From contig NZ_AGAV01000017.1 in the NCBI RefSeq assembly GCF_000224785.1, positions 1 through 64,000 of the forward strand: a DNA stretch of 64,000 nucleotides. The letters run 5' to 3'. This document shows, piece by piece, positions 5,541 through 61,760 of this stretch. This stretch comes from Lentibacillus jeotgali. GTDB taxonomy: Bacteria > Bacillota > Bacilli > Bacillales > Amphibacillaceae. Under the pieces are notes generated by a model. It saw only the letters and a list, made by a program, of their open reading frames with translations, made no database searches and was not told where the DNA came from. A program made the translations under genes and the position numbers. Within the stretch, counting starts at the first letter, position 1. Each line of letters opens with the position of its first letter.

Positions 5541-5747
5541 GGATTTCGCGCGAGGACGGCATGAAATCGCGCGGTGTCCATGGTTTTTCGCGCGGCGATG
5601 GCATGAAATCGCGCGACGCCCCCGAATTTCGCGCGAGGATGGCATGAAATCGCGCGACGTCGCCGAATTTCGCGCGAGGATGGCATGAAATCGCGCGACG
5701 CCCCCGAATTTCGCGCGAGGACGGCATGAAATCGCGCGACACAGCTC
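5541..5747 (+). repeat. 21-base repeat array T1 (TCGCGCG type)
   Basis: Tandem units of 21 bases in alternating pairs (period 42), with core TCGCGCGA and flanks such as GAATTTCGCGCGAGGATGG and CATGAAATCGCGCGACG. It runs straight into array R3 without loss of phase, which shows that the TCGCGCG and TCGTGCG units belong to one repeat superfamily. T2 at 10656 carries the reverse complement of the same unit. Confidence 0.88.
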
Positions 5748-5897
5748 AAACTCGTGCGACAGCAGCTCAAACTTGTGCGGAAGCAGCGCCAACTCGTGCG
5801 ACAAGATCATTAACTTGTGCGGGAGCAGCTCAAACTTGTGCAACAACAGCACCAACTTGTGCAAGAACAGCTCAAACTCGTGCAACAGCACCACAAC
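5748..5897 (+). repeat. 21-base tandem repeat array R3 (TCGTGCG type)
   Basis: Seven units of about 21 bases, in phase with T1, downstream of glcB. The next 180 bases up to glcE hold the glcE promoter area. Confidence 0.88.
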
Positions 5898-10655: not shown

Positions 10656-10850
10656 CCTCACGCGAAATTCAGAGGGTGTCGCGCGAATTCATGCCACCCT
10701 CGCGCGAAATTCAGAGAGCCACGCGCGAATTCATGCCACCCTCGCGCGAAGTTCAGAGGGGTGTCGCGCGAATTCATGCCACCCTCGCGCGAAATTCGGA
10801 GAGCCACGCGCGAATTCATGCCACCCTCGCGCGAAATTCAGAGCGCCGCA
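10656..10850 (-). repeat. 21-base repeat array T2 (TCGCGCG type, inverted)
   Basis: Alternating half-units CTCGCGCGAAATTCAGAG and TCGCGCGAATTCATGCC with a total period of about 42. The reverse complement matches the T1 unit closely, so this copy is inverted relative to T1. Further downstream, 10850-11179 shows only a small hairpin (CGCAGTT at 11066 with AACTGCG at 11079) before the next gene. Confidence 0.88.
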
Positions 10851-13878: not shown

Positions 13879-13949
13879 ATAGTGGGGATTTCGGAATAAG
13901 GAGCAGTCCTGTCTTGTGGCGGGGCTGTTTTCTATTGCTGATAGACCTC

Positions 13950-14158
13950 GACTCGTGGGGGAAAGGCCTCGACTTGTGCAACAGCTCTATAAACTCGTGC
14001 GGGAGCGGGCTCAACTTGTGCGACAGCTCCAAAAACTTGTGCGGGAAAGACCTCAACTTGTGCGACAACCCAGAAACTCGTGCGGGAGTGACCTCAACTT
14101 GTGCGGCAGTTCCACAAACTCGTGCAAGAACAGCCCCAACTCGTGCAGCCGAACCGCC
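13950..14158 (+). repeat. 21-base tandem repeat array R4 (TCGTGCG type)
   Basis: Ten units of 19 to 22 bases directly downstream of the permease gene and upstream of its terminator, so the array would be transcribed with the permease mRNA. Confidence 0.88.
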
Positions 14159-14220
14159 TCCTCTTGAATGGACAACTTTGGGGGCTTCGTATTTCCGGTT
14201 AACGTTATCTATCGACAGAA

Positions 14221-14257
14221 ACCTGGTCTTGTAATCGACAAGACCAGGTGTTTTTTT
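14221..14257 (+). terminator. Intrinsic terminator after the permease and array R4
   Basis: A perfect 12-base stem (ACCTGGTCTTGT with its complement), a 5-base loop, then G and seven T. Confidence 0.93.
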
Positions 14258-14290
14258 GGTCTAAATCCATTTTTTCGATAAAAGACGAAA

Positions 14291-14390
14291 AAAGTACTAG
14301 GTAAAAGGATGTGAAATATGTAGAAATTTTGACAAAACAAAACTAAAGTTATATAGACTGCCACACTTCAACTTGATAGTCTATTAATAA
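14291..14390 (+). promoter_or_regulatory. 100-base promoter/operator module, copy 1 (matrix operon)
   Basis: Contains TTGACA (14329-14334), a 17-base spacer and TATAGA (14352-14357), a good sigma-A promoter. An inverted repeat ATAGACT (14353-14359) and AGTCTAT (14378-14384), 18 bases apart, overlaps the -10 and the likely start of transcription, as expected for a repressor operator. A second copy at 26929-27028 aligns over all 100 positions without gaps, 83 identical. Position 143 bases before the TapA-like start makes it the likely promoter of the matrix operon, with a leader of about 170 bases. Confidence 0.75.
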
Positions 14391-14532
14391 CATTTAAATT
14401 ATTTAAATAATTATGGTTAATTTTCTAGTCGAAATTTTTATAAAAGCTTCATTGCTCCCTTCTCCCTGCTGAAAATAGATTTAACAGCAGCGTTAATAAT
14501 TGTTGTAAACCGAATAACGGAAGGTGTTTTAT

Positions 14533-15075
14533 ATGAGAGGCCAACAGAACCGCAATAACAAATATGCACATGTGATCGTTAAGTTATTTGCTGTGATTTA
14601 CGTGTTATTTTGCACCGCTATCATGCTTACCTCACCAACGACTGCCTATTTTCAGGATTTTGAAACCGCTTCTGCAACCGTTTCAACTGCTGATGATTTT
14701 AATGATGGCCAAAAACAATCAGACAAGGATGGCACTGAAGAAAAGGGCCAACCTCAAGATCAAAACGAGACCGACCAGCAGGAAGCGACAAATCAGAATG
14801 AGCAGGACAAAAAGACAGAAAGCAATGATGAAGTCTCATCCTCAAATAAGAACATAAAAAAGGAAAAAGAAGAAACACCAGATCAATCCGAAGAAGAAGA
14901 AAAATCAGAGCAAACGCCAAAAACAGACAGTGAGAAAGCTGAAGAGGAGACAGGCGGTGAGAAAAAATCGAAAACTTCCGAGACCAATGCCGAAGAGACG
15001 TCAGAAGTAACAACGGAATCAAATCCGGATCGGAGTGATGACAAAGATGATGAAAAAAATCCTAAACGTGATTAA
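14533..15075 (+). CDS. TapA-like matrix protein with charged tail
   Basis: A 180-residue exported protein. The N-terminus has a hydrophobic segment (FAVIYVLFCTAIMLTS) followed by AYFQDFETASATVSTADDF, which resembles the cleavage region of TasA/TapA-type proteins. The remaining 130 residues are low-complexity and strongly charged (Lys, Glu, Asp, Gln, Ser, Thr) with no recognisable fold. The position directly before sipW and tasA matches tapA (yqxM) of B. subtilis, which helps assemble and anchor TasA fibres, but the known TapA domain is not visible, so the name is mainly positional. ATG at 14533 has GGAAGGTG upstream. It overlaps the sipW start by 29 bases. Confidence 0.6.
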   Translation: MRGQQNRNNKYAHVIVKLFAVIYVLFCTAIMLTSPTTAYFQDFETASATVSTADDFNDGQKQSDKDGTEEKGQPQDQNETDQQEATNQNEQDKKTESNDEVSSSNKNIKKEKEETPDQSEEEEKSEQTPKTDSEKAEEETGGEKKSKTSETNAEETSEVTTESNPDRSDDKDDEKNPKRD

Positions 15076-15601
15076 CCACATTACCACGTTCCTTTTATTT
15101 GCTGTATTAATTGTAACCGTGCTGTTGGTAATATCCTTCAGAGCATCGGGAGGGGAAGCGGCCATTTTCGGTTATCAATTCAAGACAGTCTTGTCCGGCT
15201 CGATGGAACCTGAGATACAGACGGGGTCCATTATATCGATTGAAAAGGGCGGGGATATGAAACGTTTTGAAAAAGGTGATGTCATCACTTATAGAACACC
15301 TGAAGATATGCTCGTCACCCACCGAATCGCTGAGGTCATAGGAGATGGTGAGCAGTATATCACCAAAGGGGACAACAACGAGGGGGCTGATTTAGACCCG
15401 ATTCTGGCGCAAAATGTTGTTGGAAAATATACCGGGTTCACGGTACCGTATATCGGTTATGTGATGAATTTTGCTAATACGTCACAAGGGGCTGCACTGA
15501 TGCTTATCTTACCCGGGCTGTTACTGGTTGGCTACTCGGGCATTACCATCTGGCGTGCACTGAGGCAATTCGATGACTCAAAAGCGGCTGAAAAACATTA
15601 A
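15047..15601 (+). CDS. sipW: Signal peptidase I, SipW type
   Basis: A 184-residue membrane signal peptidase of the ER-like type. There is an N-terminal membrane segment, the catalytic serine in LSGSMEPEIQTGS (Ser52), the histidine in VTHRIAEV (His92) that replaces the lysine of ordinary bacterial enzymes, KGDNNEGAD near residue 108, and a C-terminal membrane helix. In B. subtilis SipW processes TasA and TapA for fibre formation. ATG at 15047 (or 15050) is chosen because GGAGTGAT lies eight bases upstream. Its placement between a TapA-like and a TasA-like gene supports the role. Confidence 0.93.
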   Translation: MMKKILNVINHITTFLLFAVLIVTVLLVISFRASGGEAAIFGYQFKTVLSGSMEPEIQTGSIISIEKGGDMKRFEKGDVITYRTPEDMLVTHRIAEVIGDGEQYITKGDNNEGADLDPILAQNVVGKYTGFTVPYIGYVMNFANTSQGAALMLILPGLLLVGYSGITIWRALRQFDDSKAAEKH

Positions 15602-15751: not shown

Positions 15752-16336
15752 ATGGGTATTAAGAAACAATTAGGCATGGGCGTCATGACAGCGGCGCTTG
15801 GTTTATCATTAGTCGGAGGGGGTACGTATGCATACTTCAGCGACAGCGAGACAACGAACAACACGTTTGCAGCAGGGACACTGGATCTGGCGGTAGAGCC
15901 GACACAAGTGATTGAAGTTGACAATATCCAGCCAGGTGACTCGATGACCCGCGATTTTGAGCTGCAAAATAACGGGTCACTCGCTATCGACAAGGTACTC
16001 CTGGAAACAAATTATGACGTGATCGATGCAGAAGGGGACAACAGTGGTGACTTTGGCAATCATATTGAAGTCGAATTTCTATACAACGCTGATAAGCTGG
16101 ATGAAGTGATTTATCAGACAACATTAGCAGAACTGCAAAACATGTCACCTGAAGCGGTCAATGAGCATGTGTTCGATCCGTTGCTTGAAGATGGGCTTGA
16201 GCCGGGATCGCTCGATGATCTGGTTGTCAAATTCAATTTTGTCGATAACGGAGAAAATCAAAACCAATTCCAGGGCGACTCATTAGAGTTGGAGTGGACC
16301 TTTAATGCACAACAAGGATCAGGCGATGAAGAATAA
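15752..16336 (+). CDS. TasA/CalY-family matrix fibre protein
   Basis: A 194-residue secreted protein of the TasA/camelysin (M73) family. A signal peptide (GVMTAALGLSLVGGGTYA) is followed by the family hallmark AYFSDSETTNNTFAAGTLDL and then an acidic beta-rich domain (NIQPGDSMTRDFELQNNGS). TasA is the main protein fibre of Bacillus biofilm matrix and is matured by SipW, encoded just upstream. It is shorter than B. subtilis TasA (about 260). The start has AAAGGAGG. It lies 150 bases after sipW, probably on the same transcript. Confidence 0.88.
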   Translation: MGIKKQLGMGVMTAALGLSLVGGGTYAYFSDSETTNNTFAAGTLDLAVEPTQVIEVDNIQPGDSMTRDFELQNNGSLAIDKVLLETNYDVIDAEGDNSGDFGNHIEVEFLYNADKLDEVIYQTTLAELQNMSPEAVNEHVFDPLLEDGLEPGSLDDLVVKFNFVDNGENQNQFQGDSLELEWTFNAQQGSGDEE

Positions 16337-16347
16337 TTGATGTTAAT

Positions 16348-16392
16348 AGAGCTGTGCCATAAGTCATGAAACCCGTTATGGCCAGCTCTTTC
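16348..16392 (+). terminator. Hairpin, likely terminator after the tasA-like gene
   Basis: AGAGCTGTGCCATAA pairs with TTATGGCCAGCTCT with one mismatch, followed by a short TTTC tract. The T tail is weak. Confidence 0.55.
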
Positions 16393-16431
16393 GTACCTTT
16401 TAAAAGAATCAAAACGAGAGGAGAGAATGAA

Positions 16432-19326
16432 GTGAAGAAACTTGTACAGTTGCTAAGTTACATGTTAGTGTTCGTTCTTCTCCTTACAACCCCGGTTTCG
16501 GCTCTAACACCATCATCATTAACGCAACAAGGAAAGAAACCTGTTGTACAGGATAATGCGAAGCAACAGATGGTTCAACAAATGGCGGCACAAATGACTC
16601 CTGAGGAAAAAATCGGACAGCTTGTGATGCCATCCACCCACGATAACGAACAGAGCATGCCCAATGAAGACACCAAGGAACTGATTCAAGAATACAAAGC
16701 TGGTTCTGTGATCATTTATGGAAACCGCGATGCCGAGACAACAGCTGAATACAATAATCAACTCCAGGAATGGGCATCGGAAACAAATACGGGCATCCCA
16801 TTATTTTCAACGGCTGATCTTGAATACGGTGTCAATCAGCATGTGACAGATGCGACTGCCTTTCCACGCCAGATGGGGATTGCTGCGACAAGGGATTTAG
16901 AAGCTGCTAAAGAGATGGCAAGCGTGACGGCTGAGGAAATGAAAGCGGCAGGCTTTAACTGGAACTATTCCCCGCTTGCTGATGTGAACACAAATCCGAA
17001 TAACCCAGTGATTGGTGTCAGATCATTTGGTGAAAACACAGACCTTGTTTCGGATATGACCGTTGCACAAGTAGAAGGCTATCAGGAAAACGGCGTATTA
17101 TCGACGCCAAAACATTTTCCGGGACATGGTGATACGAGTCAGGACTCACACCATAATCTGCCTGCTGTAACATATGACCGGGAAACATTGGAAGAGGTTC
17201 ATCTGCCGCCATTTCAGGCAGCCATTGACGCTGGGGCCGAATCGATTATGACCTCGCATGTCATCATTGAAGCGATTGACCCGGACCTTCCAGCAACATT
17301 GTCAAAAGATGTGTTGACCGGCCTGCTTCGTGAAGATATGGGCTTTGACGGGCTTATTGTAACCGATGCCATGTCGATGCAGGCGATCAAAGACAATTGG
17401 GGTGCAGGCGAAGCAGCCGTGATGACGATTCAGGCAGGTGCTGATATTGTCATGGCTACCGGCTCACTGGATGAACAAAAAGAAACGTTTGAGGCGCTTC
17501 TTTCAGCCTATGAATCTGGTGAATTGTCACAGGAGCGTGTTGACGAATCCGTGGAGCGCATTCTGGCCACAAAAGTGAGATATGGGCTTTTTGATAATCG
17601 TTATGTCGATCCGGGTGAAGCGACAGATGTCGTGAACTCGGAATCCCACAAGGAATTGGCAGAAAGCATGGCTCAAGACTCGATGACACTCGTGAAAAAT
17701 GACGACACGCTGCCTTTTGATTCTGAATCCGATGAATCAACACTTGTCGTTGGTCCGGAAATCTATAACCAAAGTCATTACATTGAAGATATAGCTGACG
17801 CCGTTCAGGGGAAAACGAACGGGGAAGTTGATCATTACGTCACGTCCGAAGATCCTTCTGACAGCGAGATTGACGAAGCAGTCCAGCAAGCTGAACAAGC
17901 AGACCGGATCATCGTTTCAACATTCTCAGCAAGTGAACTTCCCGCAGGACAAAGCCAATTGGTTAAAGCCCTTGGCGAAACAGAAAAACCGGTTGCGTCG
18001 ATTTCTTTAGGCCTTCCATACGACATTAAAGAGTATCCTGAGGTGGATGCCCATATTGCAACGTATGCGATTGAAAGGTGGGGATCGGCAGTCCCGGTCT
18101 CCTGGGAAGCTGCTGTTGATGTCATTTACGGTGCCAGTCCGGGTGGCAAACTTCCAGTAACCATTGAAGGACACTATGAATTTGGCCATGGGGAAAACTA
18201 TGAAGCGGCGGCACCTGAAAGTGCAGGAGATATTAAAGCATTTGTTGATCAGCTGGAGGAAGAAGGCGCGTTTGAGAGTGACGTGGCACCGCGTGCTCTA
18301 AAGCGTCACCTGGATGCTGTCAGCCATTATGAAGAGCAGAAAGCCGATGAAAAAGTCATCAAACACATGCAAAGCTTTAAGGATCTGCTGGATCATCAGC
18401 AAACGCAGGAGCTGATGACCGAAGAAGCCTATAACCTGCTTCAATCGCAAGCTGATGCATTAATCGAGAAATGGGAAGCATTCGCTTTCGATTCAGAGCG
18501 GGCAATGGCTGATGTCGAGCATTTAAGTGAAGAGATTGGACCGCGAGCTCCCGGCAGTGAGGCTGAAAAAGAGGCTTCCGAGTATATAAAAGGTGAACTT
18601 GAAAAGCTGGGATACAGCACTTCCACACAAACATTTGAATTTAACGGCGGTGAACAACAATCACAAAACGTGGTTGCCATCAAGGAAGCCGAGGGCATTG
18701 AGAATCCTGAAATTGTTTATGCAACGGCACATTATGACAGTGTACCTGGTTCTCCGGGGGCGAACGATAATGGCTCGGGCACGGCTTCTCTGCTGGAATT
18801 GGCCAAGATCATGAAGGACAAGCCTGCGAACAAAGAAATCCGCTTCGTTTTCTTTGGTGCCGAAGAGGCTGGTCTCCTAGGCTCTCAGCATTATGTCAGT
18901 CAATTATCAGATGACGAGATTAATAGAAGCGCCGCCAATTTTAACATGGATATGGTTGGGACGGATTGGGATCCGGCTTCCCAGCTCCATGTCAGCACCG
19001 TTGATGGCGAATCAAATGCTGTATGGGAATCTGTTGATGCAGCGTCTGATCGATTAGGGCTGGAAGACGATCGATTGACGCTCCACCAATTAGGCAGGTC
19101 TGATCACGTTTTCTTCCATGAAGCGGGTATTGATGCCGCACTGTTTATCTGGATGGAACCAGGGACAGAGCCAGGGCAGGCAGGTATCGAACCATGGTAT
19201 CACTCGGCTGGTGACACCATTGATCGGGTAGACCCTGAAAAAATTCAAATGGTTGGGGAGTTAATCAACTCAGCCATTTCCGATGTTCCCATCGAACAAG
19301 AGCAGGACACAGATATCGCCAGTTAA
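16432..19326 (+). CDS. Secreted GH3 glycosidase - FIMAH - M28 peptidase fusion
   Basis: About 964 residues in three parts. After a signal peptide (LLSYMLVFVLLLTTPVSA) comes a GH3 domain of NagZ type: KHFPGHGDTSQDSHH (residues 227-241, with the Asp238/His240 pair typical of Gram-positive NagZ) and nucleophile Asp312 in LIVTDAMSM. A FIMAH module covers about 600-685. The C-terminal third is an M28 zinc aminopeptidase with likely ligands His767 (TAHYDS), Asp779 (GANDNGSG), Glu812 with Glu811 as base (GAEEAGLLGS), Asp840 (NMDMVG) and His924 (WYHSAGDT). It probably removes N-acetylglucosamine from wall fragments and trims peptides outside the cell. GTG at 16432 has GAGGAGAG upstream. The fold assignments are firm; substrates are inferred. 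Confidence 0.9.
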   Translation: MKKLVQLLSYMLVFVLLLTTPVSALTPSSLTQQGKKPVVQDNAKQQMVQQMAAQMTPEEKIGQLVMPSTHDNEQSMPNEDTKELIQEYKAGSVIIYGNRDAETTAEYNNQLQEWASETNTGIPLFSTADLEYGVNQHVTDATAFPRQMGIAATRDLEAAKEMASVTAEEMKAAGFNWNYSPLADVNTNPNNPVIGVRSFGENTDLVSDMTVAQVEGYQENGVLSTPKHFPGHGDTSQDSHHNLPAVTYDRETLEEVHLPPFQAAIDAGAESIMTSHVIIEAIDPDLPATLSKDVLTGLLREDMGFDGLIVTDAMSMQAIKDNWGAGEAAVMTIQAGADIVMATGSLDEQKETFEALLSAYESGELSQERVDESVERILATKVRYGLFDNRYVDPGEATDVVNSESHKELAESMAQDSMTLVKNDDTLPFDSESDESTLVVGPEIYNQSHYIEDIADAVQGKTNGEVDHYVTSEDPSDSEIDEAVQQAEQADRIIVSTFSASELPAGQSQLVKALGETEKPVASISLGLPYDIKEYPEVDAHIATYAIERWGSAVPVSWEAAVDVIYGASPGGKLPVTIEGHYEFGHGENYEAAAPESAGDIKAFVDQLEEEGAFESDVAPRALKRHLDAVSHYEEQKADEKVIKHMQSFKDLLDHQQTQELMTEEAYNLLQSQADALIEKWEAFAFDSERAMADVEHLSEEIGPRAPGSEAEKEASEYIKGELEKLGYSTSTQTFEFNGGEQQSQNVVAIKEAEGIENPEIVYATAHYDSVPGSPGANDNGSGTASLLELAKIMKDKPANKEIRFVFFGAEEAGLLGSQHYVSQLSDDEINRSAANFNMDMVGTDWDPASQLHVSTVDGESNAVWESVDAASDRLGLEDDRLTLHQLGRSDHVFFHEAGIDAALFIWMEPGTEPGQAGIEPWYHSAGDTIDRVDPEKIQMVGELINSAISDVPIEQEQDTDIAS

Positions 19327-19335
19327 TGGTAGAAA

Positions 19336-19386
19336 AAGCAGCCGTTCTTTCCGTAGGTAAATTTGTAAGAACGGCTGCTTCTTTAT
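19336..19386 (+). terminator. Intrinsic terminator after the GH3-M28 gene
   Basis: A perfect 14-base stem AAGCAGCCGTTCTT with its complement (19336-19349 with 19367-19380), a 17-base loop and a T-rich tail. Confidence 0.85.
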
Positions 19387-19445
19387 CAAATAGATAAATA
19401 AATTAGATTGATAGTTTTCTGATTTACTGGGAAAGGAGAAAGAAA

Positions 19446-22010
19446 ATGTATCCAACAAAAAAATCATTTTTATATATGCTATTCTTTGCATTTATGCTAG
19501 CTGTTACAGCCATAATGCCTGTATCGGGGACAGTTCAGGCAAATGAAACACCTTATAATCCGGTTCCGTATGAAGACATTTACCCTATCCTTGAACAGCA
19601 TGAAGAGGAAAGTGACCGTGTCTCAGTTGAAGTAATCGGTCAATCTGCATTGGGGCATGACCTGTACAGTGTGGTTATTTCTGAACCGGGGGACGATCTT
19701 GAAGAAATTAAAGAAAAGCGGGAGGAGATGATCGCGAACCCGGAAGATGCTAAGGATTTTATTGAAGAAAACCCTGACTTTAAAGTACCGTTCATGGTTA
19801 ATGGCTCAATCCATGGGGATGAATATCCGGGCACTGATGCTGTATTGCAGCTGATTGATCGGTTTGCCTATGACGATGATGAAACAACAAAGGATATTCT
19901 TGACAACAACATTCTTGTTTTTAATGTCGTTAATAACCCCGACGGCCGTATTTTAGGAACGAGGCAAAATGGGGAAGGGTTTGATCTTAACCGTGACCAC
20001 GTGACATTGTCACAACCGGAATCGGCAGTCAATGTTGATTTGATTACCGAATGGAATCCGATGGTATTTCTTGATTTGCATGGTTTCGTGAAGCGATCAG
20101 ACGATAAGCCCGGCCTGATTGAACCGACAACTGGGCCGCACAATCCTAACTATGAACATGGCCTGTACCTAGAGTACGCCTTGGATCAGGCTAAGGCCAT
20201 GGAAGGAGAAATCGTTTCAAACAGACAAGATTATGAAACTAGACTCTATCAAAATATGGAAGGCACCCATATTCCGTATCGAGACGCCGAGGATGGCTGG
20301 GATGATTACCCGCCAATTTTCACACCAATGTATGCGATGCTGCACGGGGCATACGGTCATACCCTTGAAACACCGACAAACAGTGTGGATGGTGTCAAGT
20401 GGCATTATGATGCGGTGATGGGCGCGTTGAAGTTTGCCTCAGAGAACAAAGTTGAGATGACCAACAATCAGCTGGAAATCTTCAGGCGGGGAATCCAATT
20501 TGATCACCCTGAACATGAAGATGGATTTTTCCCGAAAGCGTATGTATTGCCTGTTGATGAAACCGATCCGACGACAACTGAGAAGGCTATTAACAATCTG
20601 CTGAGACACGATGTTGAAGTAGAAAAAGCTGAAGCGCCATTTACGGTTGACGGTGAACAATATGATGAAGGAACGTTTATTGTGCCACTGGATCAGCCAA
20701 AGGCAGCTTTAGCGAATACGCTCCTGTGGGACGGCGAGGATATCAGTGATCAGGCGAGTGCCATGTATGATATTTCTGCGTGGAACTTACCGGAGCTATG
20801 GGGATTTGCTGCCATACCGACCGATTCATCGATAGATGTCCCGGTTGAAGAAGCGAAAAAGCTTGATATAGAGGGCGAATTAATCGGAGAAGGTCCGTAT
20901 AAAGTGACGAACAGTTCGGTTGACGCTGTGGCACTTGTCAACAAGCTAATCCAGAGCAATCTATCAGTTTATAAAGCAGAAAACGGCCATTTTTATGTTG
21001 AAGGCGACAACGGTGATGTGTTGGCTCAGGCTGTAGCAGAATCCGGTCTCACGGTAAAAACAGCAGCAATACCTGAGGATGCAAAAGAGTTGAGTCATGT
21101 CAATGTGGCCGTGTTGCAGGATGGTGGTCAGCATGGCATAAGGACAGCTCTTGAACAGCTTGGGTTTGAGGTGGACGAGCTTAAACCGCAAGCGATTTCG
21201 GATAATGGTTTGGATGGTTACGATGTTTTGGTAGCGAACGGCTCCGGTATTGATGACGGTGATGCATACAAACAAACCATTCATTCATTTATAGATGACG
21301 GCGGAAAATACATTGCCATCGGTGCAAGGGCATCTAACAGGGCTAGTGAGCTTGGATTGACAGATGCCAGCATTAAAACCGGTGCGCGTAACAGTAATGG
21401 TGTTGTCAACGTGAATTACAAAGATACAGCGTTAACTGCTGGATACGGCGAACAGGATATCGGATTTGTCTACAATCCTGTCTGGTACACGGATATTGAA
21501 AACGATAGAGTCGTAGCATCTTTCGCTGATGAAAACTTTTTTAAGGCCGGTTTTTGGAAAAATGCTGATGCAGCACAAGGCGAGCCCGTCATTTTGAAAG
21601 GAATCGATCAAAATGTGACACTGATGGGATTGGAAGCAGGGTTCAGAGCTCATCCGGAATATTTGTACAGATTGCTTTCCAACGCGATTTATCCGGGAGA
21701 AGAAACGATTCTGACGACTGCGTCCGGGATGAAAGAGCGTGTTGAACGTTACGAAAACGATGGGGAGCTTGAAGATAGCGGAGCTGCCCGCGCTTTAAGC
21801 GTTCATTTGACTGCTGTGAGCCGTTATGAGGAACAGGAAAAAGCGGAAAAAGTCGTCAAACATGCTGAAGGATTCAAAGATTTACTCAACAACCAACAAG
21901 AAAATGATGTGATTTCTGAAAAGGCATTTAACATTCTTGATAATGATGCTGATGCTTTGATAGAGAAGTGGGAGTCATTTAATAGCTCATCTCTCTATGG
22001 CAAGCGTTAA
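19446..22010 (+). CDS. Secreted M14-family metallopeptidase with C-terminal FIMAH module
   Basis: An 854-residue secreted zinc carboxypeptidase-like protein. Signal peptide, then an M14 domain with the zinc motif SIHGDEYPG (His123, Glu126), NNPDGR, FDLNRDH, the third ligand His212 in FLDLHGFV and catalytic Glu308 in HTLETPTN. A long region of unassigned fold follows (about 340-760), with alternating beta/alpha pattern such as GGKYIAIGARAS. The last 80 residues are a FIMAH module (HLTAVSRYEEQ, KVVKHAEGFKDLLNNQQ). It would cleave peptides outside the cell. ATG at 19446 is preceded by AAAGGAGAAAG. No terminator before the following repeat array. Confidence 0.88.
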   Translation: MYPTKKSFLYMLFFAFMLAVTAIMPVSGTVQANETPYNPVPYEDIYPILEQHEEESDRVSVEVIGQSALGHDLYSVVISEPGDDLEEIKEKREEMIANPEDAKDFIEENPDFKVPFMVNGSIHGDEYPGTDAVLQLIDRFAYDDDETTKDILDNNILVFNVVNNPDGRILGTRQNGEGFDLNRDHVTLSQPESAVNVDLITEWNPMVFLDLHGFVKRSDDKPGLIEPTTGPHNPNYEHGLYLEYALDQAKAMEGEIVSNRQDYETRLYQNMEGTHIPYRDAEDGWDDYPPIFTPMYAMLHGAYGHTLETPTNSVDGVKWHYDAVMGALKFASENKVEMTNNQLEIFRRGIQFDHPEHEDGFFPKAYVLPVDETDPTTTEKAINNLLRHDVEVEKAEAPFTVDGEQYDEGTFIVPLDQPKAALANTLLWDGEDISDQASAMYDISAWNLPELWGFAAIPTDSSIDVPVEEAKKLDIEGELIGEGPYKVTNSSVDAVALVNKLIQSNLSVYKAENGHFYVEGDNGDVLAQAVAESGLTVKTAAIPEDAKELSHVNVAVLQDGGQHGIRTALEQLGFEVDELKPQAISDNGLDGYDVLVANGSGIDDGDAYKQTIHSFIDDGGKYIAIGARASNRASELGLTDASIKTGARNSNGVVNVNYKDTALTAGYGEQDIGFVYNPVWYTDIENDRVVASFADENFFKAGFWKNADAAQGEPVILKGIDQNVTLMGLEAGFRAHPEYLYRLLSNAIYPGEETILTTASGMKERVERYENDGELEDSGAARALSVHLTAVSRYEEQEKAEKVVKHAEGFKDLLNNQQENDVISEKAFNILDNDADALIEKWESFNSSSLYGKR

Positions 22011-22026
22011 TTTGTTGCAATCGATT

Positions 22027-22320
22027 GCTCGTGCGGGAGCGGCACACTAAATGTGCGGGAACAGCGCCAAAACGTGCGGGAACGACATCGAGACGTGCGA
22101 GAGCGGCACCAAAATGTGCAAGAACGACATCGAGACGTGCGAGAGCGGCACCAAAATGTGCAAGAACGACATCGAGACGTGCGAGAGCGGCACCAAAATG
22201 TGCAAGAACGGCATCGAGACGTGCGAGAGCAGCACCAAAATGTGCAAGAACGGCATCGAAACGCGCGAGAGCAGCATTAAAACGTGCAGAAGCCATCACA
22301 ATGCGTGCGAAAACGTCTCA
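22027..22320 (+). repeat. 21-base tandem repeat array R5
   Basis: About 14 units of 21 bases in a 42-base higher-order pattern (AAATGTGCAAGAACGACATC alternating with AGACGTGCGAGAGCGGCACC). Several 42-base copies are identical, so this is the most recently amplified array in the window. Stop-free frames through it are a by-product of the period. Confidence 0.9.
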
Positions 22321-22380
22321 AACTTGAAAAGGGTAAAAACACTGACAATCTTAAAATTAATTTGGACCTTAGTTTAACAC

Positions 22381-22443
22381 AATCGGATCAATGGGGAGTT
22401 AACGGATGATCTAAGCAAAAGGATTGTCCGCTCCCCTCCGATT
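22381..22443 (+). other. Structured leader before the AmiE-like gene
   Basis: Three nested pairings: AATCGG with CCGATT, GGGGAG with CTCCCC and CGGA with TCCG. It ends about 20 bases before the ribosome site of the next gene. It could be a weak terminator or a regulatory leader. Confidence 0.4.
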
Positions 22444-22478
22444 CTGGCTGAATGCAAAATATAGGGAGGAGTCACAAA

Positions 22479-23951
22479 ATGAAAAACAAGTTTATCCCGA
22501 CAACGCTGGCTTGTGTTCTGCTCGTTTCGCTGTTTGTTGCAGGCAGCGGAAAAGCAGCGGCTTCCGCACCCATCGTACAGCCTGGACCAGCAGATAGTGT
22601 CCAGATGCTGCAGGCGCCGTTAGATGAAATCGATGACGTTATGCAGCAGGGGATCAACGATAAGTACATGGCAGGTTCTGTCTTTTTGGCAGCCAGAAAC
22701 GGAACCATTGTTAAGGAAGATGCGTACGGCTATGCAGCGCGCTATTTGGATAATGACTTTACGGAAATGGAAAATCCGGTAGACATGCAAACAGACACCA
22801 TATTTGATTTAGCTTCTATTACAAAAGTGTTTACCGCAACGGCCGCAATGCAGTTATACGAACAGGGCGCATTTAACCTGGATGATCCAGTGGCGGAGTA
22901 CATTCCGGAATTTGCCCAAAACGGTAAGGCTGATGTCACAATCAGGCAACTATTGACGCACACATCAGGCTTCCCGGCTTGGATCCCGCTTTATCAAACG
23001 ACGGATTCCCGCGAGGAAGCCTACGCAGAAGTGTTCGCGGCATCATTGGATCATAAGCCCGGCACACATTACGGATACAGTGATCTGAACATGATTACAG
23101 TTGGGGCATTAGTCGAGGAAATTTCAGGGGAGCGGCTCGATCAATATATTGAAGAGAATATTACTGATCCACTTGGAATGACTGACACAATGTTCAATCC
23201 GCCTGAATCGCTACAGCACCGTGTTGCGGCAACGGAGTATCAGCCACAGACAAATCGGGGAATCGTTTGGGGTGAGGTGCATGATGAAAACGCCTGGGCG
23301 ATGGATGGTGTTGCCGGTCACGCCGGTTTGTTTTCAACAGCACAGGATCTGGCGGTATTTGCCCAAATGATTCTTAATGATGGTGAATATGAGGGTACCC
23401 GCATTCTTGAAACTGAGACTGTGGAAAAAATGGAAACGAATCAGTTGCCTAAGTTTCCGGGGGATGCGCACAGCCTTGCTTGGGAACTGAACCAGGATTG
23501 GTATATGGGTGCACTATCCGGACCAGCGACAATGGGGCACACCGGCTTTACGGGAACGTCTATCGTTATTAATCCGGAGAAGGAAACGGTGGCGATTTTA
23601 CTGACAAACAAAGTCCATCCGACACGTGAAGCACCTTCCACCAATCCGATACGTCAGGCAGTTGCTGGGAAGACGGCTGATGCCATTAATGCATGGAGTG
23701 CATCCACTATGACAGAACTTGTCGAAGATTTGGCAGCTGAAGGGAAAATCTCAAGTGATGAGACCGCTCATGCGTTAAAGGTTCACCTGAATGCTGTCAG
23801 CCATTATGAAGACAAGGGCGAAGCGGATAAAGTGATCAAACATATGGAAGGTTTTAAAAACTTGCTGGATCACCAGCAGGAAAATATGGCAGAGGATGCC
23901 TATGAGACACTTCAGACGGATGCAGATTATGTGATTGGGAAGTGGCAATAA
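22479..23951 (+). CDS. Secreted serine hydrolase (AmiE-like) with C-terminal FIMAH module
   Basis: About 490 residues. Signal peptide (TLACVLLVSLFVAGSG), then a beta-lactamase/transpeptidase-fold domain with the SxxK motif SITK (Ser113, Lys116), a YSDLN second motif (Tyr200) and HTGFTGTS in the place of the KTG box. The pattern around LASITKVFTATAAM and DPVAEYIPEF is like B. subtilis AmiE (YbbE), an N-acetylmuramoyl-L-alanine amidase that works with NagZ in wall recycling; esterase-type relatives are the main alternative. The last 80 residues are a FIMAH module (HLNAVSHYEDKGEADKVIKH). ATG at 22479 follows GGGAGGAGTC. It ends in a strong terminator. Confidence 0.85.
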   Translation: MKNKFIPTTLACVLLVSLFVAGSGKAAASAPIVQPGPADSVQMLQAPLDEIDDVMQQGINDKYMAGSVFLAARNGTIVKEDAYGYAARYLDNDFTEMENPVDMQTDTIFDLASITKVFTATAAMQLYEQGAFNLDDPVAEYIPEFAQNGKADVTIRQLLTHTSGFPAWIPLYQTTDSREEAYAEVFAASLDHKPGTHYGYSDLNMITVGALVEEISGERLDQYIEENITDPLGMTDTMFNPPESLQHRVAATEYQPQTNRGIVWGEVHDENAWAMDGVAGHAGLFSTAQDLAVFAQMILNDGEYEGTRILETETVEKMETNQLPKFPGDAHSLAWELNQDWYMGALSGPATMGHTGFTGTSIVINPEKETVAILLTNKVHPTREAPSTNPIRQAVAGKTADAINAWSASTMTELVEDLAAEGKISSDETAHALKVHLNAVSHYEDKGEADKVIKHMEGFKNLLDHQQENMAEDAYETLQTDADYVIGKWQ

Positions 23952-23982
23952 GTCAGTCTGAAGATGGGAATTTCATGAGGCT

Positions 23983-24025
23983 AACCCTAAAAACCGGACA
24001 ATTAGGCTGTCCGGTTTTTGGGGTT
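23983..24025 (+). terminator. Intrinsic terminator after the AmiE-like gene
   Basis: A long stem AACCCTAAAAACCGGACA with a nearly perfect complement at 24008-24025 and a 7-base loop; the descending arm holds a TTTTT tract. Confidence 0.85.
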
Positions 24026-24062
24026 GAAGCGTTTTTTAAAAGTAGGGAAGTTGGGAGAAATA

Positions 24063-24556
24063 CCTTGTGCGGCAACGGCCTCAACTCGTGCAGGAATGCA
24101 CTAAATATGTGCGGGAACGACCGCAACGCGTGTGGAAACGTACTAAAGTTGTGCGGTAACGTCCTCAACGCGTGCAGGAACGTACTTAACATGTGCGGCA
24201 ACGGCCTCAACTCATGCAGGAACGTACTAAAGTTGTGCGGTAACGTCCTCAACTTGTGCAGGAACGTACTAAACATGTGCGGTAACGGCCTCAACTCGTG
24301 CAGGAACAAACCAAACTTGTGCGGTAACGGCCACAACGCGTGTGGAAACGTACTAAAGTTGTGCGGTAACGTCCTCAACTTGTGCAGGAACGTACTAAAC
24401 ATGTGCGGTAACGGCCTCAACTCGTGCAGGAATGTACTAAACTCGTACGGGAACGACCTCAACGCGTGCAGGAATGCACTAAACTTGTGCGGCAACGGCT
24501 CAACTTGTGCAGCAGCGCCCCAGACTCGTGTAAGAAGCTTCTGAACTTGTGCTAGA
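24063..24556 (+). repeat. 21-base tandem repeat array R6 (largest array)
   Basis: About 23 units with a strict 21-base period (for example AACTTGTGCAGGAACGTACT, AACATGTGCGGTAACGGCCT). It lies between the convergent serine hydrolase and Xaa-Pro peptidase genes. Internal blocks of several units are repeated, showing local amplification. Confidence 0.93.
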
Positions 24557-24596
24557 GCTGTCACTATTCGCGAGAAGAAGAGGTTGAAATAGGAAA

Positions 24597-24620
24597 GGCG
24601 CAGTCCATAATGACTGCGCC
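24597..24620 (-). terminator. Terminator of the Xaa-Pro peptidase gene
   Basis: GGCGCAGTC pairs with GACTGCGCC around a 6-base loop, followed on the minus strand by TTTCCTATTT. Confidence 0.75.
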
Positions 24621-24659
24621 TGCAAATATATATTGTGCCGTTTGTGTCAATCTTAGAAA

Positions 24660-26813
24660 CTACTGCCAATCTTCCAGTAAACGATCTAATGCTGACATTA
24701 ACTTATTGTAAGCCAAGTCCGAAATTAAATCTTGATCCTTATGATGCTCGAGCAGCGGTTTAAATCCATTCAGATGCTTTACTGCTTTTTCCATGGCTGC
24801 TGTCTTTTTATAATGAGCAAGTGCCGTTAAATGGGTTTCAACGTTGCGGGTTGCCTCTTCATCGTTGAATGCGCCATCACGCTTCAATTTATCAACCAGG
24901 TTTTGTAAATACGGAATTCCTCCCATTGCTCGCTCAAATGCCTTTTTGCCGCCGACAACCGGCAGTTTCACATGACTTTGGCCCAGAGAAACATTTAACG
25001 TTGCTCGGGTTTCATCCGGCATAAGCCATCTGTCATCACTGCCAGCAATCACAATGCCAATGCGATGACCTTTTTTGAAAACATAGTCTTCAGGAAGTGT
25101 ATCCCATTGGAAACGGTAGTTTTTACCCGGCTGTAAAATGTCCGTTTGTTTAAGACTCCTCCAATTTTGAGCATCAAGCCATCCGTGCGTGACAATTTCG
25201 TATGGTGCCGTGTGTGTCGTCTTTTCTGTTTCCTTATAGCAGGCATCATCGACATCTGTACTTGCACCCCAGCACGACTCAGTCTCCAACGTACGGACAC
25301 CCTCGCCGCTGTCACGATGATTGACGCGCTCGTCCGTTCCGTAATCGACAATCATGGCTGTCAGATTTGTATCTTCCTCATCCACCATCGCCTGGATATC
25401 AAATTCCGGAACGCCGCTCAATGTCACATCTTCTTTTAATTCAGGGGACAGGAACATTAATCTGTTTTCTTTTGCTGTAAATTTATCTGCCACCATTTCC
25501 TGTTCTGTCTGTTCAGGGTCGTCTGTAAATGTTTGCGTGAAATTTCCTTTGACGGCTGTGGTTGTCATTGTTCCTGGGAGCTTTTCTGTCGCCGGTCCAA
25601 GTTTTACTTTAACTGATTTGGAATCTTCAAGTGGCCAGGATGAATAGGTTTCCCACTCATCGGCTGACCGTTCGATATCGACTGTCGGTTCATCCGTAAT
25701 GCCATTGTCGATATCAAGCAGCCAATGGTCAAACCATTTATGAAGCGTGTCTACCCATTCTGCCCGGCGAAAATCAAATGGATCAACATGTCCGGTTTGT
25801 GACAGCCAAAGTTTACGCGGGACATCATGGTTGGCAAGCTCCTCCCACCAATTGGAAAAGTGGTTGGCTTTAACATTATAGTCATTCAAACCATGGATAA
25901 CGAACACACTGGCATTGACATTATCAGCGTCTTTCACAAAGTTACGCTCATCCCAAAACGCATTGTAATCACCGGTTTCATCGTCAGCTCCTGCTCTGAT
26001 TTCCTCCCTGACAGATGCACATTCGTCAATACTGTCACTGCTTACCACTGTTCTGGCCAGGCCACTTGGTCCATTTGGATAAAATGGAATGCCGCCATAG
26101 CGGTAATAGTCATACCAGCTGCTGATGGCTCCGATTGGGACAATGGTTTCCAGACCTTCGACACCAGTAGCGGCAACCCCATTGGCAATTGTGCCGTCAT
26201 ATGATTTTCCGATCATGCCGGTTTTACCTGTCGTCCAGTCGGCCTCGATTTCTTCACCATCCTCATTCCAGGCGGTCCCGTTCCCATTCAGCCACTCAAT
26301 GACCGTTTTGGCACTTTCCGTCTCTTCATAGCCTCCGGTAGTAGGGCAGCCATCGGAGTTGTTTGTACCAACCATATCGACTTGTACAACGGCATAGCCC
26401 CTTGGCACAAAATAATTATCATAGAATAGCGGAAATTTTTCATTGTCGCCATCACCATCGGGGTCTTTTATCTCGGATTCATTTCCGCGTCCAAGACTTT
26501 CATAATAAGGACTTGCATCCATGATAACAGGTACTTGCAAATCATCTTCGGTTTTCTGTGGACGGATGATATCCACCGCGATCCGATCAGACTTACCATC
26601 GTTATCACTGTCCAAGGACGATTCGACATAGATTGTTTCTCTGATTGCATCCTCATACGAATAAATTGATTCTGTCACGCCATTTTCGAGCTGGTAGCCA
26701 GATACAGAATCGCCTTCTGTATTGGCGTCTGCATGGGACGGGATGGTAAAAACAGCTGACAGTAATAGAATCAGCGTAATCAGTAAAATTTTGAATATAT
26801 CATGTTTCAACAA
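24660..26813 (-). CDS. Secreted Xaa-Pro dipeptidyl-peptidase (S15) with FIMAH module
   Basis: A 717-residue secreted serine peptidase. Signal peptide (LLITLILLLSAVFTIPSHA), S15 alpha/beta-hydrolase domain with nucleophile Ser204 in IGKSYDGTIA, Asp in HGLNDYNV and His in SQTGHVDPFD, then the beta-rich C-terminal S15 domain (KKGHRIGIVIAGSDDRW). The last 85 residues are a FIMAH module (HLTALAHYKK, KAVKHLNGFKPLLEHH). It should release Xaa-Pro dipeptides from peptides outside the cell; cocaine-esterase-like hydrolases share the fold. The start is one of two adjacent TTG codons after AGGAGGGAG. It is divergent from ggt, with promoter module copy 2 between them. Confidence 0.9.
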   Translation of the reverse strand: MLKHDIFKILLITLILLLSAVFTIPSHADANTEGDSVSGYQLENGVTESIYSYEDAIRETIYVESSLDSDNDGKSDRIAVDIIRPQKTEDDLQVPVIMDASPYYESLGRGNESEIKDPDGDGDNEKFPLFYDNYFVPRGYAVVQVDMVGTNNSDGCPTTGGYEETESAKTVIEWLNGNGTAWNEDGEEIEADWTTGKTGMIGKSYDGTIANGVAATGVEGLETIVPIGAISSWYDYYRYGGIPFYPNGPSGLARTVVSSDSIDECASVREEIRAGADDETGDYNAFWDERNFVKDADNVNASVFVIHGLNDYNVKANHFSNWWEELANHDVPRKLWLSQTGHVDPFDFRRAEWVDTLHKWFDHWLLDIDNGITDEPTVDIERSADEWETYSSWPLEDSKSVKVKLGPATEKLPGTMTTTAVKGNFTQTFTDDPEQTEQEMVADKFTAKENRLMFLSPELKEDVTLSGVPEFDIQAMVDEEDTNLTAMIVDYGTDERVNHRDSGEGVRTLETESCWGASTDVDDACYKETEKTTHTAPYEIVTHGWLDAQNWRSLKQTDILQPGKNYRFQWDTLPEDYVFKKGHRIGIVIAGSDDRWLMPDETRATLNVSLGQSHVKLPVVGGKKAFERAMGGIPYLQNLVDKLKRDGAFNDEEATRNVETHLTALAHYKKTAAMEKAVKHLNGFKPLLEHHKDQDLISDLAYNKLMSALDRLLEDWQ

Positions 26814-26928
26814 AACTCCCTCCTAATCTATTGATTAATATTAGATTAGCGTTTAATAGAAAAAATAGGAAGAGGATTTTATACTAATTTTCTGAACATT
26901 GGCGGTGTAGATTAGGCAAAAAAGGTGA

Positions 26929-27028
26929 AAAGTACTAGGTAAATGGACAGGAAAATTATAGAAAATATGGACAATCAAAACTAAAGTTATATAGACTGCT
27001 GCATTATAACTTGATAGTCTATTAATAA
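26929..27028 (+). promoter_or_regulatory. 100-base promoter/operator module, copy 2 (before ggt)
   Basis: Ungapped match to 14291-14390 (83 of 100). Promoter elements TGGACA (26968-26973), a 16-base spacer and TATAGA (26990-26995) point toward ggt. The inverted repeat ATAGACT/AGTCTAT (26991-26997 and 27016-27022) with an 18-base gap is conserved exactly. The module also lies 116 bases upstream of the divergent Xaa-Pro peptidase, so a protein bound here could act on both genes. Confidence 0.7.
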
Positions 27029-27287
27029 GATTTTTATTATTGTAAAAACAATTATAATTTAACCCATTTTTGTCGTCTGGTGTCCTTAAAATTGACAAGA
27101 AATGAAAGGTGACCAGTTACATCAATGAACCTCTTTGTGACCTCATTAGAAGTTAGATTCCGCAAAACGTTTATCCAGATATAGAAAAACTAATAAGTAA
27201 GCCGATTCATTGGAATTTCATAGATTATCGCAAATTATCAGTAAGCCGGGGTAATTTACAAATCCATTATGACAGCAGCAAGAAAAG

Positions 27288-27329
27288 CCTTATTTGCGAC
27301 GGGACAATCGCTCGCCGCAAGGGTTTTTT
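27288..27329 (+). terminator. Terminator-like hairpin in the ggt leader
   Basis: CCTT and TGCG pair with CGCA and AGG across a 17-base loop, with a 3-base bulge, followed by G and six T. It lies about 300 bases after the module-2 promoter and before the ggt start, so it could attenuate transcription. Confidence 0.5.
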
Positions 27330-27353
27330 ATAATATGGAAAGGAGGTTGATAG

Positions 27354-27467
27354 ATGACATGCCCGGAAAAAATTAAAAAGCACAATGAATACAGAAAGGA
27401 GAATGATAGTGAAGAATCAAACATTCAAATGGCTGTCGATTTTCATGTCGCTGCTGCTTCTAGTTAG
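27354..27467 (+). CDS. Possible 37-residue leader peptide overlapping the ggt start
   Basis: An ATG with an excellent ribosome site (AAAGGAGGTTGATAG) opens a 37-codon frame beginning MTCPEKIKKHNEYRKEN and ending at TAG 27465-27467. It overlaps the beginning of ggt in another frame, so its translation would cross the ggt start and could control it by coupling. The peptide resembles nothing I know. The ribosome site is the main evidence. Confidence 0.4.
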   Translation: MTCPEKIKKHNEYRKENDSEESNIQMAVDFHVAAASS

Positions 27468-29436
27468 TGTCTTGATTCCAGCAGGCTTAACTGCCAATGC
27501 GCAGGGCATTAAGGATGAACAGACGGCAAAAGGCGATTATGGCATGGTTGTGACGTCACATCCATTAGCATCTGAAGTTGGTGCAGATGTATTAAAAAAT
27601 GGCGGTAATGCCATTGATGCGGCTGTTGCGATTCAGTTTGCACTGAATGTAAATGAGCCGATGATGTCCGGTATCGGCGGTGGCGGCTTTTTAATGTATT
27701 ATGACGCTGATAGTGAAGATGTGTCGGTCATTAACAGCAGGGAGCGGGCCCCGGCCGGTGCAACACCGGATATGTTTCTGAACGAAGACGGTGATCCCAT
27801 GCCTTTTGAAGAACGGGTCCGCAGCGGTAAATCAGTTGGTGTGCCAGGGACGCTGAAAGGGCTTGAAACGGCTCTCGATCAATGGGGCACACGTTCAATG
27901 GCAGAACTGATCGAACCATCAATCGAAATGGCGGAAGAAGGCGTTGAAGTGAATTGGGTGCTTGCCAACGCCATCGAGAGTAATGAGGAAAAACTGTCCA
28001 ACACAGCGGCAAAAGAAGTTTTCCTACCTGATGGTGAACCGCTGGAAGAAGGCGATTTGCTTGTGCAGGAGGATTTGGCTAAAACATTCAGGCTGATTGC
28101 CGAACATGGTACCGATGTATTTTACAATGGTGAAATTGGTGAAGCACTTGCTGAGGAGGTACAAAAACGTGACAGCAGTATGACACCGGACGATCTCAGC
28201 CGGTATGACGTCACCCATGAAGAACCAGTATGGGGTGATTACAAGGGATATGATATTGCCTCCATGGCCCCGCCGAGTTCAGGTGGTCTGACAATGCAGC
28301 AAATGCTGGACATGTTTGAAGAGATGAACCTGACACAACATGGCATCAAATCAGCCGAAAAATATCATCTTATGGCTGAGGCGATGCACCTTGCCTATGC
28401 AGACAGAGGCGCTTATATGGGCGATCCGGAATTTGTAGATGTGCCTGCTGAAGGGTTGCTCCACCCTGATTATATTGAAGAAAGGGTTGATACAATCGAT
28501 CCAAATCAGGCCAATGACAACGTTCAGCCAGGGAACCCATGGGCGTACCAGGAAAGTGAGCCTTCTGACATAAGTGAAAAAGCTGGTGACAAAAAGAATG
28601 GCCAGACGACGCACTTTACCGTTGCCGATAACGAAGGCAACCTTGTGTCATATACCACGACGATTGAACAAGTATTCGGATCAGGGATTATGGTGCCCGG
28701 TTACGGCATTATGCTGAACAATGAACTGACGGACTTTGATGCTATTCCTGGTGGTGCGAATGAAGTCCAGCCGAACAAACGGCCGCTAAGCAGCATGACA
28801 CCAGCGATTGTTTTAGAGGACGGCGAACCGTACATGACAGTCGGATCACCAGGCGGCACAACCATCATTACGTCAGTATTGCAGACCATTGTCAATGTGA
28901 TCGGGTATGATATGGAGCTTAAGGCTGCCATTGAAGAACCGAGAATCTTCAGCAGTTCCTATCCACGTATCAGCTGGGAAGAAGGTATTCCGTCAGATGT
29001 ACGGGAGCAGCTGTCATCAATGGGTCATGAATGGGAATCATCACCAGGTGAAATCGGGAACGTCAACAGCTTAAGGATCGACTCTGAAAGCGGGACTTAC
29101 TTTGGCGCTGCCGATTCAACCAGAGAAGGCAAAGCCATCGGAATTTCGGCCGAAGATTTGCCGCCGGAAGCGTCAACGGTTGCGTATTTGCAGTATCTTG
29201 TTGATGAACTAGCAGAGGACGGCGAATATAACGGCGAAACGGCCATTCGACAAGCTGACATTCATTTAGAAGCACTTGCGCATTATGAAAATACTGGAGC
29301 CATGGACAAGGCGGTTAAACATTTGAATGGATTTGAGTCGCTGCTTGACCATCAGATGGATAATGATTTGATTTCAGAGGACGCTTATGAGGAATTGATG
29401 GCGGCGTCTGGTGAGCTGCTGGATGAATGGGAGTAG
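27409..29436 (+). CDS. ggt: Secreted gamma-glutamyltransferase with C-terminal FIMAH module
   Basis: About 675 residues. Signal peptide (WLSIFMSLLLLVSVLIPAGL), then a full GGT domain: VVTSHPLASEVGADVLKNGG, MSGIGGGGFLMYYD, the self-cleavage and catalytic threonine in NGQTTHFTV (Thr400), and GSPGGTTIITSVLQ. The precursor should cleave before Thr400 into two subunits. It hydrolyses or transfers gamma-glutamyl groups (glutathione, polyglutamate, gamma-glutamyl peptides) outside the cell. The last 85 residues are a FIMAH module (HLEALAHYENTG, KAVKHLNGFESLLDHQ), absent from ordinary GGTs (about 580). GTG at 27409 is preferred because AGAAAGGAG lies eight bases before it; an ATG at 27385 is also in frame. 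Confidence 0.93.
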   Translation: MKNQTFKWLSIFMSLLLLVSVLIPAGLTANAQGIKDEQTAKGDYGMVVTSHPLASEVGADVLKNGGNAIDAAVAIQFALNVNEPMMSGIGGGGFLMYYDADSEDVSVINSRERAPAGATPDMFLNEDGDPMPFEERVRSGKSVGVPGTLKGLETALDQWGTRSMAELIEPSIEMAEEGVEVNWVLANAIESNEEKLSNTAAKEVFLPDGEPLEEGDLLVQEDLAKTFRLIAEHGTDVFYNGEIGEALAEEVQKRDSSMTPDDLSRYDVTHEEPVWGDYKGYDIASMAPPSSGGLTMQQMLDMFEEMNLTQHGIKSAEKYHLMAEAMHLAYADRGAYMGDPEFVDVPAEGLLHPDYIEERVDTIDPNQANDNVQPGNPWAYQESEPSDISEKAGDKKNGQTTHFTVADNEGNLVSYTTTIEQVFGSGIMVPGYGIMLNNELTDFDAIPGGANEVQPNKRPLSSMTPAIVLEDGEPYMTVGSPGGTTIITSVLQTIVNVIGYDMELKAAIEEPRIFSSSYPRISWEEGIPSDVREQLSSMGHEWESSPGEIGNVNSLRIDSESGTYFGAADSTREGKAIGISAEDLPPEASTVAYLQYLVDELAEDGEYNGETAIRQADIHLEALAHYENTGAMDKAVKHLNGFESLLDHQMDNDLISEDAYEELMAASGELLDEWE

Positions 29437-29454
29437 GTTTGTCAATGTGAACGT

Positions 29455-29772
29455 TCTCATGCGGGAATAGGCCAACCCTGTGCAGTAGTAGTAGATGAAC
29501 TTGTGCGAGAACGCTCTATTCCCGTGCGAGTATTGCGCAAATCTGTGCGAGAGCAACCTGAACTTGTGCAGAAATGACGCCGGCCTGCGCGAGACGCCTT
29601 TGAATTCGTGCGAGAACTCTCGGAACTTGTGCAAGGGTGCTTTAAACTCGTGCAGGAATAGGCTGAACCCGTGCGGAAGCAGACGTAATTTGTGCGACAA
29701 CTAACCAAACTTGTGCGAGAAGCCTTTTGAATTCACGCGAGGACGCATCAAACTCATGCGGGAACAGCCTCC
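29455..29772 (+). repeat. 21-base tandem repeat array R7 (degenerate)
   Basis: About 15 units of 20 to 22 bases, more diverged than in other arrays, directly after ggt. From 29773 to 30104 no gene is convincing: a 42-codon minus-strand frame (29824-29952) encodes a hydrophobic stretch but has no ribosome site. Confidence 0.85.
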
Positions 29773-30104
29773 TGCTCATGCCAGTGCTGATATTTAATCT
29801 GCTTATAAATGACATCGAGTCGATTAAATAGCCATCGCAAGTACGAGCCCCTGAAAGGCAATGCCGAGAACTGACACAGCAGTTAGGGCCACCTTGATAT
29901 GGCTGTGCAAAAATAAGGTAATAGAAGAAGAGCAGGCAGTCCAATACAACATAGATAGTTAATTAAACGTTTGATCAAATCTTTCTTATCAGCAGAAGAT
30001 AGGATAATAGATAAATCCTTGCTGGAAGGGATGATCAAATTCTTGAGAAAGAAGCAAAGCTTACAATTTATTATCTAAATGTTTAGAAGAGGAGGCCAAT
30101 ATTA

Positions 30105-61562: not shown

Positions 61563-61760
61563 CGGCTCCAACTTGTGCGACAAGCGGCTGAACTTGTGCG
61601 AGAAGCTCCCGAATTTGTGTGGCAGCGGCTTCAACTTGTGCAGAGTAACGCTAAAGTTGTGCGAGAGCATCGCTAACTCGTGCGAGAATGAGACCAACGT
61701 GTGCGAAATTCACTCCAACTCGTGCAGCAACACTCCGAATCCGTGCGGGAATCCCCTTGA
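61530..61760 (+). repeat. 21-base tandem repeat array R9 (TCGTGCG type)
   Basis: About 11 units of 20 to 22 bases. The first unit and a half lie inside the coding sequence of the PP2C-like gene. Confidence 0.9.

Follow-up and report, generated by a model that had tools for sequence, protein, structure and literature searches.

The 100-base module that occurs twice in the window, a stretch of 64,000 nucleotides from Lentibacillus jeotgali, is most likely a promoter heading the biofilm-matrix genes of salt-loving Lentibacillus. Our main reading, to which we assign a probability of roughly 60%, is that the module constitutes the promoter region of a tapA-sipW-tasA-type matrix unit in Lentibacillus and near relatives, and that its second copy represents another unit of this type without the matrix genes. 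A description of the element was not found in the literature at the depth of abstracts and listings, with most subscription journals outside the coverage.

The two copies, located at positions 14291-14390 and 26929-27028, align without gaps and share 82 of 100 bases. The gapless duplication claimed in the original prediction is therefore real, its count of 83 identities being one too high. A gapped local alignment of the two modules reached a score of 131, far above the maximum of 33 among 300 dinucleotide-shuffled pairs, and extended the likeness by about 25 bases into the A+T-rich leader. BLAST, a sequence profile and a core pattern all recovered only two strong copies in the genome itself: the profile search gave nine matches at E values up to 10, two of them strong, and the core pattern with up to three mismatches gave two matches, compared to none for the reversed control. 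Likewise, the genome search proposed earlier for ATAGACT-N18-AGTCTAT returned exact matches only at the two window sites.

Module 1 begins 40 bases past a terminator-like hairpin on the plus strand (14221-14249; 12-pair stem, T run, −21.6 kcal/mol, z −5.56) that follows the upstream permease gene, is a strong one of its kind and isolates the module from that gene. Downstream, on the same strand, lie a tapA-like gene (14533-15075; TIGR04087, E 8e-10, 38.6 bits against a cut-off of 80) with a predicted 144-base leader from the module, the signal peptidase gene sipW (15038-15601; NF046067, 255.9 bits, cut-off 190) and a tasA/calY-type matrix protein gene (15752-16336; PF12389, E 3.1e-88; NF046066, 112.9 bits, below the cut-off of 450). 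As originally predicted, copy 1 precedes the TapA-like gene, and copies in relatives also head matrix genes. The gene order past tasA is GH3-FIMAH-M28 (16366-19326, plus strand, assigned by Pfam), M14-FIMAH and beta-lactamase-FIMAH. Co-expression of matrix genes and exoenzymes is possible, given that the GH3-FIMAH-M28 gene has the same orientation as tasA and starts only 29 bases past it. From tapA to the beta-lactamase gene, neither this gap nor any other yielded a plus-strand terminator-like call; the nearest intergenic one further on is at 23982-24026. Module 2 is situated between the divergent S15 X-Pro dipeptidyl-peptidase gene with a FIMAH domain (24660-26813, minus strand, Pfam), which served as its synteny marker, and the ggt gene with a FIMAH domain (27385-29436, plus strand; PF01019, PF22888), in agreement with the earlier description of a copy pointing to ggt alongside a divergent peptidase gene. 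Six secreted-type enzymes (GH3-M28, two M14, beta-lactamase-like, S15 and ggt), all with FIMAH, are encoded at 16366-32318 beside the matrix operon. A full-text literature search for 'FIMAH domain' found no paper. The window also contains tandem arrays, mostly intergenic, whose periods are close to 21 and 42 bases and whose sequences resemble each other (e.g. CTTGTGCG), at 953-1086, 2022-2166, 5543-5890, 10656-10847, 13951-14147, 22053-22288, 24064-24512, 51582-51891 and 61533-61685. Open frames crossing these arrays are probably not genes.

Among 159 genomes of the family, nine contain the module, with 12 strong copies altogether: two each in G000, G050 and G052 and one each in G043, G046, G047, G059, G145 and G156. 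Within the genus, it is present in 6 of 12 genomes. The weakest member reached an E value of 5.0e-17 and the next match 1.05e-3 in a profile built from the same 12 copies, which confirmed its training copies and added none; this profile search used stricter filters, at which weak matches can be lost. Two copies that appeared weak at first (L016 and L019) were counted on the basis of profile E values of 3.3e-19 and 5.0e-17. Matches with profile E values of 0.001-0.1, or of 7e-5 and weaker in the first search, were treated as chance and left uncounted, among them L021-L025, L029, L030 and G046:C19:141221 (E 0.002); L015, L017, L018, L020 and L028 were inspected and not kept. In a scan with the core (C-D part) of the module, covering the window and the fetched loci numbered L074 and up, the 12 members scored at least 37.8 bits and the next place 8.1, with a matrix trained on these members. 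Searches for tasA-type genes gave 49 matches in 15 genomes; apart from the known copies, the core was absent from the 30 of these 49 that the scan included. An exact core-pattern scan of 84,980 species genomes produced seven matches, by record title Lentibacillus salicampi (2), L. kapialis, L. halodurans, Lentibacillus sp. CBA3610, Virgibacillus sp. YIM 98842 and Roseburia sp. 1XD42-34 (as labelled).

Most copies head tapA/tasA matrix genes or a GH3-FIMAH gene that is usually followed by tasA. Copy 1 of the window and the G046 copy head tapA-sipW-tasA, the second G050 copy tapA-tasA, and the G043 copy tasA. A GH3-FIMAH glycosidase gene intervenes before tasA behind the first G050 copy and the G047 copy, and before tapA-sipW-tasA behind the G059 copy; one G052 copy is followed by broken pieces of such a glycosidase gene and then by sipW and tasA. 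The S15-side copy of G052 heads a broken tasA copy and then a broken ggt, and copy 2 of the window heads ggt. What speaks against our main reading is that the promoter hexamers are moderate and that two copies head genes without an adjacent tasA, namely a GH3-FIMAH glycosidase gene in G145 and a gene for a dipeptidyl-peptidase-like FIMAH protein in G156. FIMAH matches range from 2 to 53 in the nine module genomes and from 0 to 9 in six module-less Lentibacillus genomes; the module does not track FIMAH genes one by one, and a FIMAH regulon was ruled out. G156 stands out with 53 FIMAH matches compared to 0-17 in the other 14 genomes searched. With one or two copies per genome, the module is not a shared exoenzyme regulon element.

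An alignment of the 12 copies (A1) revealed two fixed elements in the core. ATAGAC is invariant in all copies, and TTGRTANNCT follows at a constant distance of 20 bases, its TTG, TA and CT being invariant as well. We read TAGAC(T/G) as a −35 region and TGNTANNCT as an extended −10 region, separated by 17 bases in every copy. Sigma-A promoters with an extended −10 form a known class, which the module resembles in the TGN preceding a T-A-n-n-n-T −10, the 17-base spacer and the TnGAC −35. It differs in the central bases of the −10, which depart from consensus in all 12 copies, and a generic promoter scan of the window did not list the pair in either copy. The features of a sigma-A extended −10 promoter (hexamers 16-18 bases apart, T-A...T, preceding TG) are present in 12/12 copies, as moderate matches below the limits of the generic scan. 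On conservation and spacing, the predicted −35 TAGACT is located at 14354-14359 in module 1 and 26992-26997 in module 2, and the predicted extended −10 TG-A-TAGTCT at 14374-14382 and 27012-27020, respectively, all on the plus strand. Together, these elements would form a sigma-A-type promoter with predicted transcription starts near 14389 (copy 1) and 27027 (copy 2). Hexamers this weak may make it dependent on a factor bound at or near a distal block.

This distal block A, AAAAGTACTAG, is located upstream of the core and is conserved in alignment A1. Its distance to ATAGAC is 60 bases in 8 of 11 copies found by pattern and 51, 56 and 62 bases in the other three, the intervening sequence of about 60 bases being rich in A+T. 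In copy 1 it reads AAAAAGTACTAGG (14289-14301, plus strand, approximately −100 to −88 from the predicted start) and in copy 2 GAAAAGTACTAGG (26927-26939, plus strand), a one-mismatch match. The 13-base word of copy 1 occurs exactly once in the genome and with one mismatch at six places including copy 2, less often than the reversed control; taken by itself, block A shows no enrichment relative to the reversed pattern (4+3 compared to 16+17). A dispersed regulon was rejected on these counts and on the two strong hits among nine profile matches. The two window copies differ at none of 54 positions inside the conserved blocks and at 18 of 46 outside, with blocks drawn post hoc; when columns were chosen from the other ten copies only, 4/46 compared to 18/64 positions differed (p 0.015). 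The middle block of the module resembles a CodY site by eye. A structured RNA element was ruled out: the RNA folds of both modules were no better than shuffles (z 0.76 and −0.91), and the window contained no Rfam match at gathering score. Two sub-threshold Rfam matches among nine loci at E up to 1 (L009 and L026) lay outside the modules.

Which factor might read the module? RemA is our best guess among known factors. In B. subtilis, tapA and eps are targets of RemA, which acts via periodic A+T-rich sites (PMC8481266), and the A+T-rich stretch between block A and ATAGAC might be wrapped in a comparable manner by a ring protein. That the module is the binding region of such a RemA-type matrix activator is possible but improbable; it is compatible with our main reading and would name its factor. 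RemA-like genes were present in 15/15 genomes searched, yet equally in the six without the module. In addition, RemA sites are described as poorly conserved whereas the module is conserved, and a periodicity of A-tracts of 10-11 bases was not clear of permutation, 19 of 300 permutations being as high. In G052, the better RemA-like match (G052:C1:910718-910924) contains three in-frame stops, which may be due to sequencing error.

The assignment of the promoter elements competes with two other registers, which we compared using sigma-A hexamer frequencies. In the first, TTGATA of block D is the −35 with a −10 located 16-18 bases further on (TAAATT at 14395-14400; TATTAT at 27035-27040), and ATAGAC and the rest of the module are operator or activator sites. 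TTGATA matches TTGACA at five of six positions, the generic scan lists this register in both window copies, and its totals there (8.6-9.9) are higher than those of the TAGAC(T/G) pair, as is the case in 5 of 12 copies (win1, win2, L010, L011 and L027). The remaining seven, however, lack a fitting −10 and score 2.8-5.9, compared to 6.0-6.7 for the TAGAC(T/G) pair in all 12, and strong conservation in the alignment ends ahead of the −10 of this register. We consider it unlikely. Even though it scores better in the window, we prefer the TAGAC(T/G) register because it is the only one that holds in 12/12 copies.

The second register builds on the original prediction; in it, TTGACA-N17-TATAGA is a sigma-A promoter, ATAGACT-N18-AGTCTAT an operator, and a single repressor governs both matrix genes and ggt. 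In copy 1 TTGACA stands exactly 17 bases from TATAGA, with a total of 8.3 compared to 6.4 for the TAGACT pair. This is the only copy in which it wins: its totals range from 1.0 to 8.3, and the TAGAC(T/G) pair exceeds it in 11 of 12. Copy 2 has TGGACA at 16 bases, TTGACA is found in 1/12 copies, and the final T of a −10 is absent from all 12 (TATAGA, or CATAGA in one). At block D, the −10 scores 3.0-3.7 with TG in 12/12 copies, whereas the alternative −10 scores 0.7 or −2.0 and lacks TG.

The inverted repeat itself is exact in both window copies (14353-14384 and 26991-27022), its right arm in module 1 overlapping the predicted extended −10. As evidence it is weak on its own: when the 100-base module was mononucleotide-shuffled 2000 times, 27% of the shuffles contained a perfect 7-base repeat with a loop of up to 40 bases. 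Across the 12 copies it is perfect in four, single pairs are broken in up to six, and none of the seven pairs had changed on both sides. An inverted-repeat operator was rejected on these pair counts. In some copies TAGACT happens to be the mirror image of TAGTCT, which is what produces the repeat. We regard the repressor scheme as distinctly unlikely. What stands of the earlier interpretation is a promoter-type element with one copy heading tapA-sipW-tasA; the conserved −35/−10 pair, the operator and the shared regulon do not.

In B. subtilis, the tapA-sipW-tasA operon is under SinR and AbrB control, and the SinR box reads GTTCTYT. It is very unlikely that the module is a SinR operator region. 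SinI-domain proteins are encoded in 13/15 genomes, and block A of L011 and L013 contains AAAGAAC, the complement of the SinR box. These two are the only ones with a box, one each, among the four relatives' copies checked (none in L010 and L014); no box occurs in either window leader (13900-14540 and 26800-27400), and G047, which lacks a SinI-domain match as does G044, keeps the module. Compared by description rather than by sequence, the module resembles the B. subtilis tapA promoter in the genes headed, in an A+T-rich control region of about 100 bases and in the presence of a RemA-like gene. In contrast, the window copies are devoid of the SinR box, the Lentibacillus module is a strongly conserved composite sequence, and FIMAH exoenzymes are part of the gene series behind it.

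The relatives suggest an origin for copy 2. In G050, a module that heads tapA-tasA-GH3/M28-M14-ggt comes next after the S15 gene; in G052, about 2.7 kb separate S15 from a module with the broken genes described above. The G052 stretch has many broken genes, also outside the cluster; it may be error-rich, with the tasA copy intact in the cell. At the start of the S15 gene, a 74-base stretch matches at 83.8% between the window and G050. A maximum-likelihood tree grouped copy 2 with the S15-side copies of G050 and G052 and the G156 copy, which does not lie next to S15 (94/90, just under the threshold of the tool); the three S15-side copies alone were not a clade, and other forks were weak. From this we infer that copy 2 once headed a further matrix unit, which predates the divergence of these species and has lost its tapA and tasA in the window genome. 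A relic of a duplicated unit explains copy 2 better than a promoter recruited to co-regulate ggt. That the copies are a mobile repeat or a site-specific recombination site flanking the exoenzyme block is hardly credible: each of the three genomes with two copies (G000, G050 and G052) has them as direct repeats separated by 11-20 kb, but tandem duplication accounts for this geometry, the neighbourhood recurs, viral contigs (exact pattern) and plasmids (blastn) contained no copy, and the dispersal over many unrelated loci that the original prediction had named as contrary evidence is not seen with at most two copies per genome and 12 in 159 genomes.

According to our main reading, module 2 would belong to another matrix unit next to the S15 gene, one that arose before some of these species diverged. 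The window genome would have lost the matrix genes of this unit, and its promoter now lies ahead of ggt, separated from it by a terminator-like hairpin and T run (27282-27329, plus strand; fold of 27280-27340: −18.6 kcal/mol, z −2.67). A simple terminator scan did not call this hairpin; a related one (−29.3 kcal/mol) lies immediately ahead of ggt in G050. Should the window hairpin act as a terminator, module 2 would reach ggt only via read-through, if at all. The hairpin might also be a possible attenuator.

A more far-reaching proposal, which we put forward only tentatively, is that the module is a lineage-specific control element, a composite promoter some 100 bases long whose core geometry is rigid and which a factor dedicated to this one locus reads. 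It would replace SinR-type control of a tasA unit in halophilic bacilli and switch matrix protein and FIMAH exoenzymes together, both paralogous copies having remained constrained even though one no longer has its matrix genes. With a dedicated factor, these bacteria would regulate their matrix genes differently from B. subtilis. For matrix production in salt-loving bacilli, the module offers a promoter open to testing, its bases specified and its starts predicted, and it suggests how a promoter may persist once the genes it served are lost and come to stand before a neighbour.
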